From the IMG/VR virus record IMGVR_UViG_3300032284_002910, positions 1-29,767 of that record: a DNA stretch of 29,767 nucleotides; one strand, given 5' to 3'. Within the stretch, counting starts at the first letter, position 1; each line of letters begins with the position of its first letter. The position numbers and the translations under genes were made by a program. The DNA comes from a virus. Below are positions 7,707 to 16,378 of this stretch, one piece after another. The notes under the pieces were generated by a model. The model searched no databases and was not told the DNA's origin. It worked only from the letters and a program-made list of their open reading frames with translations.

Positions 7707-8084
7707 ATGCACTTCTATAGAGATTCTATCCGAAACAAACCCGTACAAATGTTGGACACCAATAGCGCAGGGCGGAATCAAGATCAAAAGCAACAGGAGT
7801 TCGGCCCAGGTGAGGCTTTTTTTCATGGCAGTAGCCCGTTTAAGCGTGAGTTTAGCGCATTTTTGGATTCATTGCCAACAAAAGCATTGGAATATTTGAT
7901 GACCACACAACAAAAAAACTTTGCCAAAGCCCTATGGGAAGCAGAAAACTATGGCGGTAGACCCACTCCAGGGGATTTCAAAAACATGCGGCCATTAAAG
8001 GAGTACCAAACGCTGGTGGTCTTAATAGATCACCAACAACAATGGTCTCGCCAAGCTCTTCCCAAAACGCAGAAAAATTGTTAA
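7707..8084 (+). CDS. Unknown protein (125 aa)
   Basis: Starts MHFYRDSIRNKPVQM; an ATG at 7749 (MLDTNSAGRN) is an equally plausible start. A polar Gln-rich stretch leads into a helical domain (FSAFLDSLPTKALEYLMTTQQKNFAKAL) and GGRPTPGDFKNMRPLKEY. No family is recognised. It heads a plus-strand run of four genes (7707-9766) and its end overlaps the next gene by 43 bases. It is divergent from the proline-rich gene with only 17 bases between them. Confidence 0.5.
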   Translation: MHFYRDSIRNKPVQMLDTNSAGRNQDQKQQEFGPGEAFFHGSSPFKREFSAFLDSLPTKALEYLMTTQQKNFAKALWEAENYGGRPTPGDFKNMRPLKEYQTLVVLIDHQQQWSRQALPKTQKNC

Positions 8085-8725
8085 GCTACTGTCACAAAGC
8101 AATTTTGGCCGTGCTTGACTACCTAACAGATGAAGAGGATGAGGGCAGCGGCCTTGACAGTTTTGAAGATCCTGATCCCAAGCGCCATCAATATCTAAGC
8201 TACCGTTTTAATCAATTGGTTATTGAAGAGGTTACCATTGAGAATTATGAAGAAAAATTGGTTGCTTCTTTGGCGCAACAGGTGGAGATGTTCATCCCAC
8301 CGTCAGGAAGTTTTGAGGATGCTGATCTGCGCCGTTACCTGGAGTTGATCAAGACCTATGAAACCAGCAGCAATGATCTTGTACTTGGGTTGTCGCTGGC
8401 GGACCAGATCAGAATTACGTTTAGCGATATGAAACCCGCCACGATTTGCGAACGGTTTCCTGATATCGATCTTGCCACAAAACGTAGATATCGTTGCGTA
8501 GCAGAATACCTCTTGCGGCAAAATGAAATCATCAAATTACGCGATGAAAAGGGCAAGCTGATCAAAAAGATTGGCAACATGCAGAAAATGGTGGTCATCT
8601 ACCAACCGTTGCCTAAGATTCGTGAAACACTCAAGCGTTCTGGCCTTGGTAATTTCGTCAAATTTACGCGGGAAGAACTGGAGCAACAAAAACTTCTTGC
8701 TATGATGTCGCCAGCTGGACAGTAA
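8042..8725 (+). CDS. Unknown, mostly helical acidic protein (227 aa)
   Basis: Starts MVSPSSSQNAEKLLSYC. It has an acidic loop (DEEDEGSGLDSFEDPDP, about 30-46), long helices, and a Lys-rich C-terminal part (KGKLIKKIGNMQKMVVIYQP; VKFTREELEQQKLLAMM). No catalytic motif is seen and no family recognised. Its ATG lies within the end of the preceding frame, so the two are probably coupled; the next gene follows after 3 bases. Placement next to nucleic-acid genes hints at DNA or RNA metabolism, which is only a guess. Confidence 0.55.
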   Translation: MVSPSSSQNAEKLLSYCHKAILAVLDYLTDEEDEGSGLDSFEDPDPKRHQYLSYRFNQLVIEEVTIENYEEKLVASLAQQVEMFIPPSGSFEDADLRRYLELIKTYETSSNDLVLGLSLADQIRITFSDMKPATICERFPDIDLATKRRYRCVAEYLLRQNEIIKLRDEKGKLIKKIGNMQKMVVIYQPLPKIRETLKRSGLGNFVKFTREELEQQKLLAMMSPAGQ

Positions 8726-10346: not shown

Positions 10347-10549
10347 TACAAATGGACTATGACGAACTCATTTATCATCTAACCCCGGAGCTTCAGTTGA
10401 TTGATCTTTTAGATCAGCTGACCGCAAAAAATTCCGTGGTGAGTCCATACCTCCTGGAACAGTATTCCAAATCCTCCAAAAACGACGAAGAACCTCCCCA
10501 GTCTGATCCCATTCCACCAGTTTCCGCTCCAGGTATTCCATTGCCTTGA
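10340..10549 (+). CDS. Unknown small protein (69 aa)
   Basis: Starts MLVQMDYDELIYHLTPELQL; ATG 10352 (MDYDEL) is an alternative with an AAGGG element upstream. The N-terminal half is an amphipathic helical region (LQLIDLLDQLTAKN) and the C-terminal third is Pro/Ser-rich (PPQSDPIPPVSAPGIPLP). It overlaps the upstream gene by 7 bases. Its 3' part overlaps the convergent lysozyme-like gene by about 180 bases, so one of the two frames must have little freedom to vary. No family is recognised. Confidence 0.4.
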   Translation: MLVQMDYDELIYHLTPELQLIDLLDQLTAKNSVVSPYLLEQYSKSSKNDEEPPQSDPIPPVSAPGIPLP

Positions 10550-11159
10550 TTTGGTTTGGGGTGCCGCTGTAGCAATCTGCTACGTTAAGTAGGCATTGTT
10601 TCAGCTTGCATTTATGCTTGTATAGCGTAGGAATTTCTTTATCTGGTGCCAAGAACATATTCAGTTCTGCCTTTCTTCTTTGTATCAAGAATGGCGATTT
10701 GTTGAAATAAAAAGTATTGATATAGGGTGACCATTCCCGGATAATGTCGTTCTTGCATGCTTTTGCATTGATCAGCTCCAGCAATTTACACTCTTTGAAT
10801 ACAGGGATACCGACGCTATGGGCATAACTCAAAATTGCCCCTTTTCGTTTTGCGTTTAGGGGCATCTGCACATAATGTTCCACCAGTGCAGCAAATGGTT
10901 TCAGATCCTCAACAAGTTGTGCTACGCATTCTTGTTTTGTTGCTCGAATACCTACACCAACGCGTCTCCCAAATATCTTTGGGCTGGCAAAACCAATCCG
11001 CCATTCCTTGTCAAATGGGTCTTTGTATGATTTGTACAGCTCCATACCGACATGCACACGCATCTCGGTATAGTGAGCAATAAGATTTATTCCGTGCTGA
11101 TTTAAAAAGGAAGAAACCTCTTCCTTAGGGGACTTTGGCGCTTCCGCTGTACTCAACAC
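10368..11159 (-). CDS. GH24-like lysozyme (endolysin candidate) with extra C-terminal domain (263 aa)
   Basis: Putative peptidoglycan-degrading enzyme. The start is GTG 11159, with GAGGGA just upstream; a TTG at 11171 is an alternative. The GH24 layout is visible: INLIAHYTEMRV (Glu32, likely catalytic), YKSYKD (Asp47), W-R-I-G-F (53-57), then LVEDLKPFAALVEHYV, AILSYAHSVGIPVFK and SPFLIQRRKAELNMFL (155-170), the RRxAExxxF hallmark. In T4-type enzymes the third residue is the Thr of TIG; here it is Arg (R54). About 90 C-terminal residues (185-263, Cys/Lys/Trp-rich) have no recognised match. It overlaps the upstream PPC-like gene by 35 bases. The family call is moderate. Confidence 0.5.
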   Translation of the reverse strand: MLSTAEAPKSPKEEVSSFLNQHGINLIAHYTEMRVHVGMELYKSYKDPFDKEWRIGFASPKIFGRRVGVGIRATKQECVAQLVEDLKPFAALVEHYVQMPLNAKRKGAILSYAHSVGIPVFKECKLLELINAKACKNDIIREWSPYINTFYFNKSPFLIQRRKAELNMFLAPDKEIPTLYKHKCKLKQCLLNVADCYSGTPNQIKAMEYLERKLVEWDQTGEVLRRFWRIWNTVPGGMDSPRNFLRSADLKDQSTEAPGLDDK

Positions 11160-11523
11160 TAAATCCCTCAAACGTCAACATCACAATATACACCTGCCCA
11201 GCGCCAGAAGTGGTAGCCCCCACGATGCCTTTCCCCTTACCGTTTTTAATAATATTTCCAAAAGAAGAATAGCCTGCAGGAACCGTCAAAGCAGTACCGT
11301 CTTGACGGAACAACTTGATGGATTCAAGTCCAACAGAGCGATCTACTGTGAAACTAAGAGTACCGTTTGTAGCGCTGGAAGTAAGCTTATAAAAGCGTGT
11401 ATTCAATCCACGGTGACCACCAGGGGGGTTGTGGCCTAGGTAGGATACCAGGGTGCCGCCGTCCAGTGCCTTTACAGAACCGGTATCAAGGGTGCCTTTA
11501 ATTGCGTAGTTAGTGGTCGCCAT
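11125..11523 (-). CDS. Beta-rich small virion-type protein, PPC-like (132 aa)
   Basis: Starts at ATG 11523 (MATTNYAIKGTLD). After a Gly-rich loop (YLGHNPPGGHRGLN) comes RFYKLTSSATNGTLSFTV, then GLESIKLFRQDGTALTV, GAGQVYIVMLTFEGF and VEYSGSAKV. This strand order resembles a PPC-type beta sandwich and parallels FYKFRL ... LISIYVVEDG ... GDYVFLIT in the protein at 6370-7041. It overlaps the lysozyme-like gene downstream and is preceded by NblA with 4 bases between them. The function is unknown, and a virion or surface-binding role is inferred. Confidence 0.6.
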   Translation of the reverse strand: MATTNYAIKGTLDTGSVKALDGGTLVSYLGHNPPGGHRGLNTRFYKLTSSATNGTLSFTVDRSVGLESIKLFRQDGTALTVPAGYSSFGNIIKNGKGKGIVGATTSGAGQVYIVMLTFEGFSVEYSGSAKVP

Positions 11524-11527
11524 GGGA

Positions 11528-11749
11528 TCAAGAAATTTGGCTTTCGGTTAGGAATTTGAGATTGATATCGGCATCAATGCCATGATCCTTGAGGATACTC
11601 AGGAACATCTGGCGATCAACCATCTTCTGGTGGAAGAGGTCAATGAAAGCTTCTTCAAGCTCTTCACGGTCAAGATCCCTGGCATACAGGGCTGCGGCAT
11701 GAATTTGAAACTCCGCATCCATGGGCAGTCCCGAAACTTCCGAGTTCAT
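11528..11749 (-). CDS. nblA: NblA-like phycobilisome degradation protein (73 aa)
   Basis: In cyanobacteria NblA is a small helical adaptor that targets phycobilisomes for proteolysis with host ClpC; several freshwater cyanophages carry it. Here LPMDAEFQIHAAALYARDL then REELEEAFIDLFHQKMVDRQ and MFLSILKDHGI reproduce the two-helix NblA pattern, including the LE(E/D)xFI...QKM and F..(I/L)LK signatures seen in the Synechococcus elongatus protein. The length is normal; NblA usually has 55-65 residues, so the tail is slightly long. It lies between two small minus-strand genes. An extended -10 element is just upstream. The likely role is dismantling the host light antenna during infection. Confidence 0.75.
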   Translation of the reverse strand: MNSEVSGLPMDAEFQIHAAALYARDLDREELEEAFIDLFHQKMVDRQMFLSILKDHGIDADINLKFLTESQIS

Positions 11750-11768
11750 TGGCCGTCCAATACTGGAT

Positions 11769-11779
11769 TAATTCTAACA
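11769..11779 (-). promoter_or_regulatory. Candidate extended -10 promoter for nblA
   Basis: On the minus strand TGTTAGAAT reads as TGnTAGAAT, matching an extended -10 (5 of 6 for the hexamer), about 22 bases before the nblA ATG at 11749. No convincing -35 is seen, as is common with extended -10 promoters. It would allow nblA expression separate from the upstream gene. Confidence 0.35.
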
Positions 11780-11787
11780 GCAATCAC

Positions 11788-12009
11788 TTAAACGGTGTAG
11801 CGGTTAGGCTGTGCAGCCATTCCGCTGCTACCCACATACGGATGTGTGCCCATTTGACCACCTGCGTCAATCATCGCCATAGGTGTGGCGCGTACATCAG
11901 AAGCAAAGGAGGGTAGATCGGGGCCGTCCTCAAACATCCTGGGTGCGAAAGCCGGCAACCGTTCAGTGACGTACTGGTTTAAAAAAGCTTTCCCATCTGG
12001 ATGATTCAT
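11788..12009 (-). CDS. Small FLNQY-motif protein (73 aa)
   Basis: Starts MNHPDGKAFLNQYVTERL. The FLNQYV motif (9-14) and the Gln-Pro-Asn/Phe-Arg end (AAQPNRYTV) recall the protein at 9763-10041. The middle is Ala/Pro/Met/Gly-rich (PMAMIDAGGQMGTHPYVGSS). It lies upstream of nblA on the same strand. No function is recognised. The family is likely virion- or assembly-associated, by analogy with the other F-x-x-Y proteins. Confidence 0.55.
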   Translation of the reverse strand: MNHPDGKAFLNQYVTERLPAFAPRMFEDGPDLPSFASDVRATPMAMIDAGGQMGTHPYVGSSGMAAQPNRYTV

Positions 12010-12149: not shown

Positions 12150-12947
12150 ATGAACTTAGAGGCGGTCCTTAATCACATGATTGCAAGCGCCTGCGCAGGA
12201 GTTAGCAAAAAGCAGATCATACGTTCTTTGGAGCAACAGAATGTAGAAGAAACTGAAATTGCAATGCTGATAAAGGCGGCCAATTTCAAAACAGCACCGG
12301 ATGTGATTGATTATGAATACTTATATCAGCGTCCTATTCCTAAAAAATCTGTAAACCATGCACCATTAGGGTCACGTATTAAGTTGTTCACTTTGGATGA
12401 TTTCTTGACAGCAGATGAATGCCAAGATTTAATGCATATTATTGATAAAGAAAAACAACGCTCAACCGTTGCCGACCCGAAAGATAGTGGGCTTGTCAAT
12501 TCATATCGCACCAGCAGTACAGCAAACTTGCAATATGCAAGCGAAAGCGTCGTTGAAATAGTTAATGACAGGCTTGCAAAACTGTTGGATCTAGATCCAT
12601 TTCTTGGCGAGGCTATGCAAGGGCAAAAATATGATCCAGGCCAATACTATAAAGAACACAATGATTATTTTCATCCAGGAACAGCTGAGTTCAAGACCTA
12701 CACCGAATGGATGGGACAACGCACATGGACAACCATGATCTATTTAAACAATGTTGAAGAAGGTGGTGAGACGTATTTCAAACGACTAAAATGCAAATTC
12801 AAACCAAAGCAAGGTACCGTAGTGTTCTGGAGCAACCTATACCGCAATGGTAAGGTAAACCCCAAGACACTTCATGAAGCTCTACCGCCAATCAAGGGGA
12901 ACAAATATGTTATTACAAAGTGGTGGCGCAGTTGGCCCTTGATTTAG
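12150..12947 (+). CDS. 2OG-Fe(II) oxygenase, prolyl 4-hydroxylase type (265 aa)
   Basis: Hydroxylates a protein or peptide side chain using 2-oxoglutarate, O2 and Fe(II). The double-stranded beta-helix core spans about residues 77-262. H170 and D172 (EHNDYF) and H242 (TLHEALP) form the HxD...H iron triad, and K252 (GNKYVITKW), exactly ten residues after the distal His, should bind the 2OG carboxylate. The N-terminal 60 residues form a small helical region (GVSKKQIIRSLEQQ) not part of the core. The TTMIYLNNVEEGGETYF block is typical of P4H members. Such genes are common in cyanophages, where the substrate is unknown. The stop overlaps the convergent gene at 12944 by 4 bases. Confidence 0.9.
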   Translation: MNLEAVLNHMIASACAGVSKKQIIRSLEQQNVEETEIAMLIKAANFKTAPDVIDYEYLYQRPIPKKSVNHAPLGSRIKLFTLDDFLTADECQDLMHIIDKEKQRSTVADPKDSGLVNSYRTSSTANLQYASESVVEIVNDRLAKLLDLDPFLGEAMQGQKYDPGQYYKEHNDYFHPGTAEFKTYTEWMGQRTWTTMIYLNNVEEGGETYFKRLKCKFKPKQGTVVFWSNLYRNGKVNPKTLHEALPPIKGNKYVITKWWRSWPLI

Positions 12948-13645: not shown

Positions 13646-14125
13646 TCAAGATTTATAATCTAGTGTACTCTTAAGCAACCATTGAAACTTTTTGTGGGCA
13701 CGTCCGCGTTCTACCGCCAAATCAAGAGTAAGCTGGTCACCAATTTTTTCAGCGGCTGCTGCCAAAGCTTCAAAATTTGTTCCAAGTTTGTCGTGGTTTA
13801 ACGCCAGTTGTTCAATCAACTTATCTTGCGCAAAGCAGTCTTCAGTCAACTTAGGAAACGAGGAATAAGTCAAATCTTCGACCGACCGGGGGGCACTAAT
13901 ATCAAGTGAGCGTAGATGCTCTGCAATGGTATCAATACCCTCTTGCATCTCTTCATAAATTGTTTGTGTCAATTTATGAATTGAATAAAACTTGCCACCC
14001 ATCAAGTTCCAATGGACAATGGTTGTTTGATGGTACACGTAGGTGCTATCCCGTAGTGATTGCACCAGGTCGCGGTAGCAGGCGTCTTTTTTGTTTAAGA
14101 TTTTACCCATTTGGCCAGAGATCAT
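13646..14125 (-). CDS. dps: Dps-family mini-ferritin (159 aa)
   Basis: Dps proteins form 12-mer cages that oxidise and store iron with H2O2 and can coat DNA. YVYHQTTIVHWNLMGGKFYS and the following helix match the family. H38 and H50 on one subunit and D65 and E69 (DTIAE) give a spacing of 12, 15 and 4, identical to the inter-subunit ferroxidase residues H51, H63, D78 and E82 of E. coli Dps, so an active centre is likely. Length is normal. The N-terminus is only mildly basic, so DNA binding is uncertain. ATG 14110 (M6) is an alternative start. It overlaps the basic gene upstream by 23 bases. Confidence 0.85.
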   Translation of the reverse strand: MISGQMGKILNKKDACYRDLVQSLRDSTYVYHQTTIVHWNLMGGKFYSIHKLTQTIYEEMQEGIDTIAEHLRSLDISAPRSVEDLTYSSFPKLTEDCFAQDKLIEQLALNHDKLGTNFEALAAAAEKIGDQLTLDLAVERGRAHKKFQWLLKSTLDYKS

Positions 14126-15372: not shown

Positions 15373-16194
15373 TTACCAACCTTCAAAAACGATATACCAC
15401 CCCGTTGCCCATCCATCTGCAGTCCAGCGGTAACGAAAGAAAAGCGTGGTGTACTCTATGGCTTCTCCATTGTCGTGTTCATAGGTACCGTCTCGGTGTA
15501 AGAATTTACCTAGGGGGTCATTGACGATGTATCTTCTCTTGTTTTCGTCATACCCTACTACCGTAACCCAGTGCCCTTCACCCTTGGGGTTATACATATC
15601 ACCCTCGTTTAATGCGCAGCAGATGACAGGAGAACAGTTGTCAATGGCGCGTTTTAAGTCCGCTTGGATGCCATTCTTGTAGTAGGTTGCTCGCACCCCT
15701 ACGCTACGCAACAGGTCAACATTAGCGTAGGGGGATTCGTGACCGCCAAATGCCTGTACTCTTTCGTAGTATTCATCCGGATTAGCAAATGCCTCAGGCC
15801 GCAGATACATGGCCGCACACGCACAACTCAAGTACAAGGAGCTTCTATAACCACCTTCTTCAATTGTTTTTTGCTTATAATAAGGTACATGTAGGTGTAT
15901 TCTCCCTACTTTTGTTGTAATTGCAAGCTGCCTTGATGGGATGGGTCTTCCATCAACGCCCCACCAGTATTCATCTTGGATCCACCATTCACCCAATGTG
16001 GAGGGGAGGCGTACCAGGGTGTGCCCATTTTTCTTGTCAAGGATTTGACAATTCTTCCATTCACGGTTAATGACAACAACCGCTTTCATGCTTGGGGGTA
16101 AAAGGTCTGGAGGTTTTGGTTCTTTTTTGAAAACCGTCCAGACCTTTGATTTGATTGTTACAGGCTTATCAGCTTGTAAATCAGGACACAACAT
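15373..16194 (-). CDS. C39-like cysteine peptidase (273 aa)
   Basis: Putative peptidase, possibly peptidoglycan- or protein-cleaving. The core spans about residues 100-230: HLHVPYYKQK leads into SSLYLSCACAAMYL (Cys124 or Cys126 as nucleophile), then EGHWVTVVGYD (His208) and IVNDPLG (Asn225-Asp226), the Cys-His-Asn/Asp set of the C39-like family. The N-terminal 90 residues (VVVINREWKNCQILDK; EWWIQDEYWWGVDG) may be a separate beta domain. I chose ATG 16194 because it overlaps the upstream stop by 14 bases; the frame extends to 16269. Placement with fibers and lysozymes suggests entry, lysis or maturation, but substrate is unknown. Confidence 0.65.
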   Translation of the reverse strand: MLCPDLQADKPVTIKSKVWTVFKKEPKPPDLLPPSMKAVVVINREWKNCQILDKKNGHTLVRLPSTLGEWWIQDEYWWGVDGRPIPSRQLAITTKVGRIHLHVPYYKQKTIEEGGYRSSLYLSCACAAMYLRPEAFANPDEYYERVQAFGGHESPYANVDLLRSVGVRATYYKNGIQADLKRAIDNCSPVICCALNEGDMYNPKGEGHWVTVVGYDENKRRYIVNDPLGKFLHRDGTYEHDNGEAIEYTTLFFRYRWTADGWATGWYIVFEGW

Positions 16195-16378
16195 CAGGAG
16201 TGACGGCTGCTGAACCTTCCTCTTCTGCTTGTAGTTCCTTGATAGCGTTAATAGCTCCTTGCAAGGCAATGATTTCTTCTTTTGTTTTCTCCAGAGTTAC
16301 AGTAGTTTCGTTATAAATGTTGATTTTTTCTTGGAGGCTGGCCATCAAGGTATCGACTTTGGCGCTAAGGTTGGTCAT
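16181..16378 (-). CDS. Small coiled-coil protein (65 aa)
   Basis: Starts MTNLSAKVDTLMASLQEKIN. It is predicted as one amphipathic helix (VTLEKTKEEIIALQ; AINAIKELQAEEE) with a short acidic tail. It resembles the 67-aa protein at 15136-15339 around (L/V)QGA(L/I), suggesting a common origin. It is the first gene after the promoter at 16402-16430 and its end overlaps the C39-like gene by 14 bases, which favours coupled expression. The function is unknown. Confidence 0.65.
   Translation of the reverse strand: MTNLSAKVDTLMASLQEKINIYNETTVTLEKTKEEIIALQGAINAIKELQAEEEGSAAVTPDVVS

Follow-up and report, generated by a model that had tools for sequence, protein, structure and literature searches.

Cyanobacterial NblA (PF04485, NF045916; 3cs5, 1ojh) is a small helix-loop-helix protein, whose N-terminal motif binds ClpC and whose C-terminal motif binds phycobiliproteins (PMC4103541; PMC7966870). 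Phage NblA itself is already known. The freshwater cyanophages Ma-LMM01, MaMV-DC and PaV-LD, which belong to another lineage than the phage studied here, encode NblA homologues for which antenna dismantling has been proposed (PMC4103541; PMC9602691). According to PMC9602691, cyanobacteria made to express nblA genes of freshwater or marine phages lose phycobilins, and one marine-phage NblA-like gene is active in S. elongatus. The marine NblA-like genes covered there (metagenome phages of Nadel 2019, cyanopodoviruses, S-TIM5 and S-SCSM1) resemble the present gene in being divergent and carried by picocyanobacterial phages; S-EIV1 is not named among the carriers in the passage concerned. The S-EIV1 group has been tabulated with hli and ptoX and without nblA (PMC5332604).

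We analyzed positions 1 to 29,767 of the virus record IMGVR_UViG_3300032284_002910. This whole stretch of 29,767 nucleotides is called the window. The features around its nblA-like gene are as follows.

10368-11171, minus strand: phage lysozyme (endolysin), third gene of the putative operon; Pfam Phage_lysozyme, E 2.6e-13; PHROG endolysin, E 2.7e-13
11125-11523, minus strand: 132-aa "PPC-like" protein (ppc), second gene of the putative operon, downstream of nblA in conserved order
11528-11749, minus strand: nblA-like gene, 73 aa, predicted helix-loop-helix and C-terminal extension with invariant ILKDHGIDA
11764, minus strand: predicted transcription start, an A 15 nt ahead of the ATG, from conservation
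11771-11779, minus strand (read from 11779 down to 11771): extended -10 element TGTTAGAAT, family consensus TGnTAnnAT, presumably of the sigma-70 type
11788-12009, minus strand: "FLNQY" protein, 73 aa, variable upstream neighbour with homologues in only 21 loci
11793-11798, minus strand: position of the -35 hexamer, weak in the window (ACACCG), TTG in most relatives
12150-12947, plus strand: 2OG-Fe(II) oxygenase, Pfam PF13640, E 6.1e-15

A divergent NblA homologue

The open reading frame at 11528-11749 had been pointed out in a preliminary description of this DNA, and it exists as given there, with an ATG start and 73 aa. Relatives of the protein were found in viral contigs (101 found; the best 80 of the 101 were kept), and 21 columns are invariant in an alignment of 43 nblA-like sequences. 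In the close clade, the mean pN was 0.015 against a pS of 0.27 (8 close relatives), that is, the gene is under purifying selection. Thus, the reading frame is coding and not a product of chance; it is a real gene.

The preliminary description had identified the protein as NblA by the signature LE(E/D)xFI..QKM. This signature is present as LEEAFIDLFHQKM, which aligns gap-free with LEDLFIEVVRQKM in the NblA of Synechococcus elongatus (PDB 3cs5). When the window protein alone was searched, NblA was the sole match both in Pfam (PF04485, 17.8 bits, E 0.0047) and in NCBIfam (NF045916, 26.4 bits, E 5.8e-6). The HMM search thus agrees with the earlier identification, at scores below the curated cut-offs of 25 bits for PF04485 and 100 bits for the NF045916 equivalog. 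Since both scores lie under these cut-offs, we use the name NblA-like. Only 14 of the 43 relatives matched the Pfam NblA model at E 1 or better, and a PHROGs search with the window protein gave no match. A tblastn search of the phage collection with the same protein did not retrieve the NblAs of the freshwater cyanophages.

Profile comparisons gave much clearer scores. The profile of the 43 members, searched against 177,635 PDB sequences, ranked 3cs5 first (E 1.5e-6) and 1ojh second (E 0.0016), the third entry being at E 0.12. The entry 3cs5 is the NblA of S. elongatus and 1ojh that of Nostoc. In hhalign, the window family aligned with seven cyanobacterial NblAs at 95% probability (E 1.7e-8, 54 columns). 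Both comparisons place the protein in the NblA superfamily by profile homology across the whole helix-loop-helix domain. The S-EIV1-type subfamily was related to NblA in the same manner (Pfam E 0.014; hhalign E 9.8e-7; 1ojh at the top of the PDB profile search), and the two phage families align with each other by profile over the whole domain and beyond the NblA core. On these alignments, the 73-aa protein is a divergent NblA homologue outside the curated family definitions.

AlphaFold2, run with the joint alignment, predicted a helix-loop-helix with helices at residues 10-24 and 28-55 and a pLDDT of about 88 over residues 20-60. The two-helix hairpin expected earlier, two helices with a short loop between them, is therefore seen in the model. 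Foldseek and VIA-align returned no NblA for the predicted structure and so did not confirm the fold, a two-helix fold being too small for such a comparison.

The alignment with cyanobacterial NblA is gap-free across both helices, and the conserved L, F and C-terminal hydrophobic-L-K also occur in the phage protein. In the N-terminal motif, L8, E13 and F14 are kept, and the Arg part is changed to IHA (EFQIHA in the window protein versus QFSIRS or EFSLRT in cyanobacterial NblA). I52-L53-K54, invariant in the 43 sequences, is in the alignment the counterpart of the C-terminal Leu-Leu-Lys of Nostoc NblA; L51 and K53 of Nostoc NblA, aligned here with I52 and K54, are presumably residues that bind phycobiliproteins, as reportedly described by Bienert 2006. 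The S-EIV1 subfamily lacks a Lys equivalent to K54. The phage protein differs from cyanobacterial NblA in its low identity (about 26% in the profile alignment, below the curated cut-offs), in a C-terminal extension with an invariant DHGIDA, and in lacking an upstream NtcA box: no such box (GTAN8TAC) was found upstream of nblA in 80 loci.

Promoter region and gene order

The upstream regions of the relatives were aligned, giving 57 distinct sequences. TGnTAnnnT was present at -30 to -32 in all 57, with A at the next-to-last place in 56, and T and A were fixed at two positions ahead of it. The predicted +1 was A in 57/57, 6 nt past the -10 hexamer, and it was directly preceded by C or T in 56/57. 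Little of the DNA in this region is as conserved within the close clade as the promoter, the leader and the first codons. As for the S-EIV1-type relatives, TAnnAT beginning at -28 to -20 was found in 20/20 (shuffle rate 0.08). The preliminary description had noted a promoter-like element just upstream of the gene; this was right, and the case is stronger than was claimed, since each of the family's 57 distinct upstreams retains the element. Thus, the nblA-like gene has its own conserved promoter-like element, for which promoter activity is predicted.

A generic sigma-70 scan reported 6 sites where 6.0 were expected, which is chance level, and did not list the conserved nblA element. The nblA promoter matrix was also considered as a genome-wide phage motif and was rejected, since in about 1 Mb of related loci plus S-EIV1 it gave 60 other matches at score 10 against 72 expected; one of the 60 (in L033) is in fact an nblA upstream. 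A strong match to the matrix (score 21) lies at about 12957 on the minus strand of L065, 13 nt ahead of the ATG of another gene.

As for the flanks, the earlier statement that the PPC-like and FLNQY proteins adjoin the gene is correct, but it missed a constant nblA-ppc-lysozyme arrangement and included a neighbour, FLNQY, that occurs in 21 loci only. The gene directly after nblA, on the same strand, codes for a homologue of the 132-aa protein in 78 of 82 loci, with a gap of 3-5 bp in 77 of the 78, and the order nblA, ppc, lysozyme was found in 71 loci. The 132-aa protein is without a Pfam, PHROG or NCBIfam match. The start codon of the lysozyme is uncertain, because the listed TTG overlaps the preceding gene. 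The upstream neighbour of nblA varies between loci; in the window and many relatives, the 2OG-Fe(II) oxygenase gene is divergent from the putative operon (order 2OG< nblA>). Since the downstream order is constant and the upstream gene variable, the promoter most likely serves the whole nblA-ppc-lysozyme unit rather than nblA only, and the three genes would be co-transcribed.

In the promoter-nblA block (window 11528-11790), the pS of 0.27 among close relatives compares with 0.61-0.64 in the neighbouring genes. Synonymous-site constraint at the RNA level inside nblA was considered and is disfavoured: the pS is low in close relatives, whereas it reaches 0.77-0.90 against the loci L010-L015. That the block was recently exchanged or swept as a cassette is therefore likelier than RNA-level constraint.

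The S-EIV1-like lineage

At least 10 genes of the window had strong matches in Synechococcus phage S-EIV1 (KJ410740), at 62.9-77.3 kb of that genome, mostly collinear and with up to 58.6% identity. By this common gene content and order, the window belongs to the S-EIV1-like cyanophages, a large and mostly uncultured group. The conserved protein encoded at 8042-8725 matched no record of the phage collection other than S-EIV1. Within the 29.8-kb window, no terminase or DNA polymerase genes were identified. A temperate lineage was considered and rejected, as no tyrosine integrase was found in 19 records. The metagenome phages of Nadel 2019 reportedly carry an integrase and differ in this respect from the S-EIV1-like lineage. 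A prophage of S-EIV1-like type has been reported in S. elongatus UTEX 3055 (PMC9239245).

Several other window genes have counterparts in S-EIV1. The gene at 13646-14125 encodes a ferritin-like (Dps-type) protein (Pfam Ferritin, E 7.8e-12), that at 15373-16269 a Peptidase_C39-like protein (E 2.6e-8), and that at 415-2778 a tail fibre-like protein with a C-terminal Peptidase_S74 chaperone domain (E 3.1e-7), the C-terminus of which is 58% identical to an S-EIV1 protein.

The S-EIV1 homologue of the nblA-like gene, AHV82245, is annotated as "hypothetical". It comes from the same lineage as the window phage, is NblA-like and adjoins the lysozyme gene. In contrast to the window protein, it has 106 aa with an acidic tail, and the two are 28.8% identical over 52 aa; moreover, it begins about 20 bp after the end of the lysozyme gene, whereas the window gene precedes the lysozyme. 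The sole match to the nblA-like gene in the genomes searched, a contig labelled as a Bacteroidetes MAG (L083, QQUU01000116.1), carries this phage gene together with 2OG and ppc neighbours, and is probably a misbinned phage contig.

Candidate roles of the NblA-like protein

Our best guess for the window phage, which we hold with moderate confidence, is an NblA-like proteolysis adaptor that dismantles phycobilisomes. During infection, the host RNA polymerase would read the three-gene operon from the host-type extended -10 promoter, and the transcript would start about 15 nt ahead of the ATG of the nblA-like gene, its first gene. The helix-loop-helix protein would dimerise; its N-terminal motif would contact the host Clp chaperone ClpC, and its helix 2 would bind phycobiliproteins at the C-terminal end. 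The dismantled phycobilisomes would yield amino acids and lower the light pressure ahead of lysis. Since the nearest isolate, S-EIV1, infects Synechococcus, phycobilisome dismantling is most likely for the window phage. The phycobilisome-bearing host proposed in the preliminary description is plausible for this phage on the same ground, but the gene alone is insufficient to indicate such a host, because relatives that carry it have psbA of the Prochlorococcus-phage type.

Among 18 relative contigs searched, psbA was found in 5 (G012-G016) and an hli-type gene in 6. The nearest D1 sequences to those of G016 and G014 were from Prochlorococcus phages (96.0% and 93.6% at the protein level), despite an excess of Synechococcus over Prochlorococcus phages of about 10:1 in the phage collection. 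The GC content of the nblA flanks was 0.34-0.38 in the psbA-bearing relatives versus 0.47 in the window. From psbA type and GC only, these relatives are likely Prochlorococcus phages; the psbA type is suggestive of the host and not a proof, since P-RSM4 shares its psbA match with S-TIM4, a cyanophage that was isolated on Synechococcus. In G015 (63595-64498 of C1, in L124), the psbA match consists of two overlapping pieces in different frames, which suggests a frameshift or an assembly error.

These relatives bear on a second explanation, in which the NblA fold and the Clp-adaptor role are kept and the protein fed to ClpCP is another host (or phage) protein. Prochlorococcus has chlorophyll-binding antennae and lacks phycobilisomes and nblA (PMC7439483), and yet the low-GC psbA-bearing relatives conserve the core of the protein, its DHGIDA extension and also the promoter. 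Against this stand the deduction of the host from psbA type and GC, with S-TIM4 among the matches, and the phycoerythrin genes that some Prochlorococcus retain. We regard another substrate as possible but rather unlikely. It is likewise doubtful that the phage family as a whole consists of general ClpC adaptors that are transcribed together with endolysin and that, in Prochlorococcus phages, target another host protein and not the phycobilisome. Nevertheless, since some relatives carry psbA or hli with D1 nearest to that of Prochlorococcus phages, antenna dismantling may not be the role in every relative.

The gene might instead encode an accessory protein of lysis or of the late phase, which shares the NblA fold by chance and whose role is mirrored by the lysozyme operon. 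The fixed nblA-ppc-lysozyme order in 71 loci and the position of the S-EIV1 homologue just past the lysozyme are consistent with this, but the sequence relation to NblA is specific, and no signal peptide or transmembrane segment was apparent by eye in the sequence of the NblA-like protein. Lysozyme is a middle gene in Ma-LMM01 (PMC5780444), so that linkage to it fixes neither timing nor function. An accessory role in lysis is thus quite improbable. That the protein is helical by chance and has no relation to NblA, as the weak single-sequence scores and the empty Foldseek result might suggest, is very improbable and already disfavoured, since the profiles of two phage subfamilies independently rank an NblA first in the PDB, and both align domain-wide with NblA and with each other.

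As far as the literature was searched, the occurrence of nblA-like genes throughout the S-EIV1-like lineage, their conserved promoter and their unit with lysozyme are new, as is an nblA-like gene in phages of hosts that likely lack phycobilisomes. S-EIV1-like phages are widespread, yet the gene has been labelled "hypothetical" in their isolate. The fixed promoter-nblA-endolysin unit would link the control of the host antenna, or of host proteolysis, to lysis. If phages of phycobilisome-less Prochlorococcus do keep the gene, the accepted account, in which phycobilisomes are dismantled for amino acids, would be incomplete. Should their target indeed be another host protein, phages would have repurposed an antenna-degradation adaptor to route that protein to the Clp protease.
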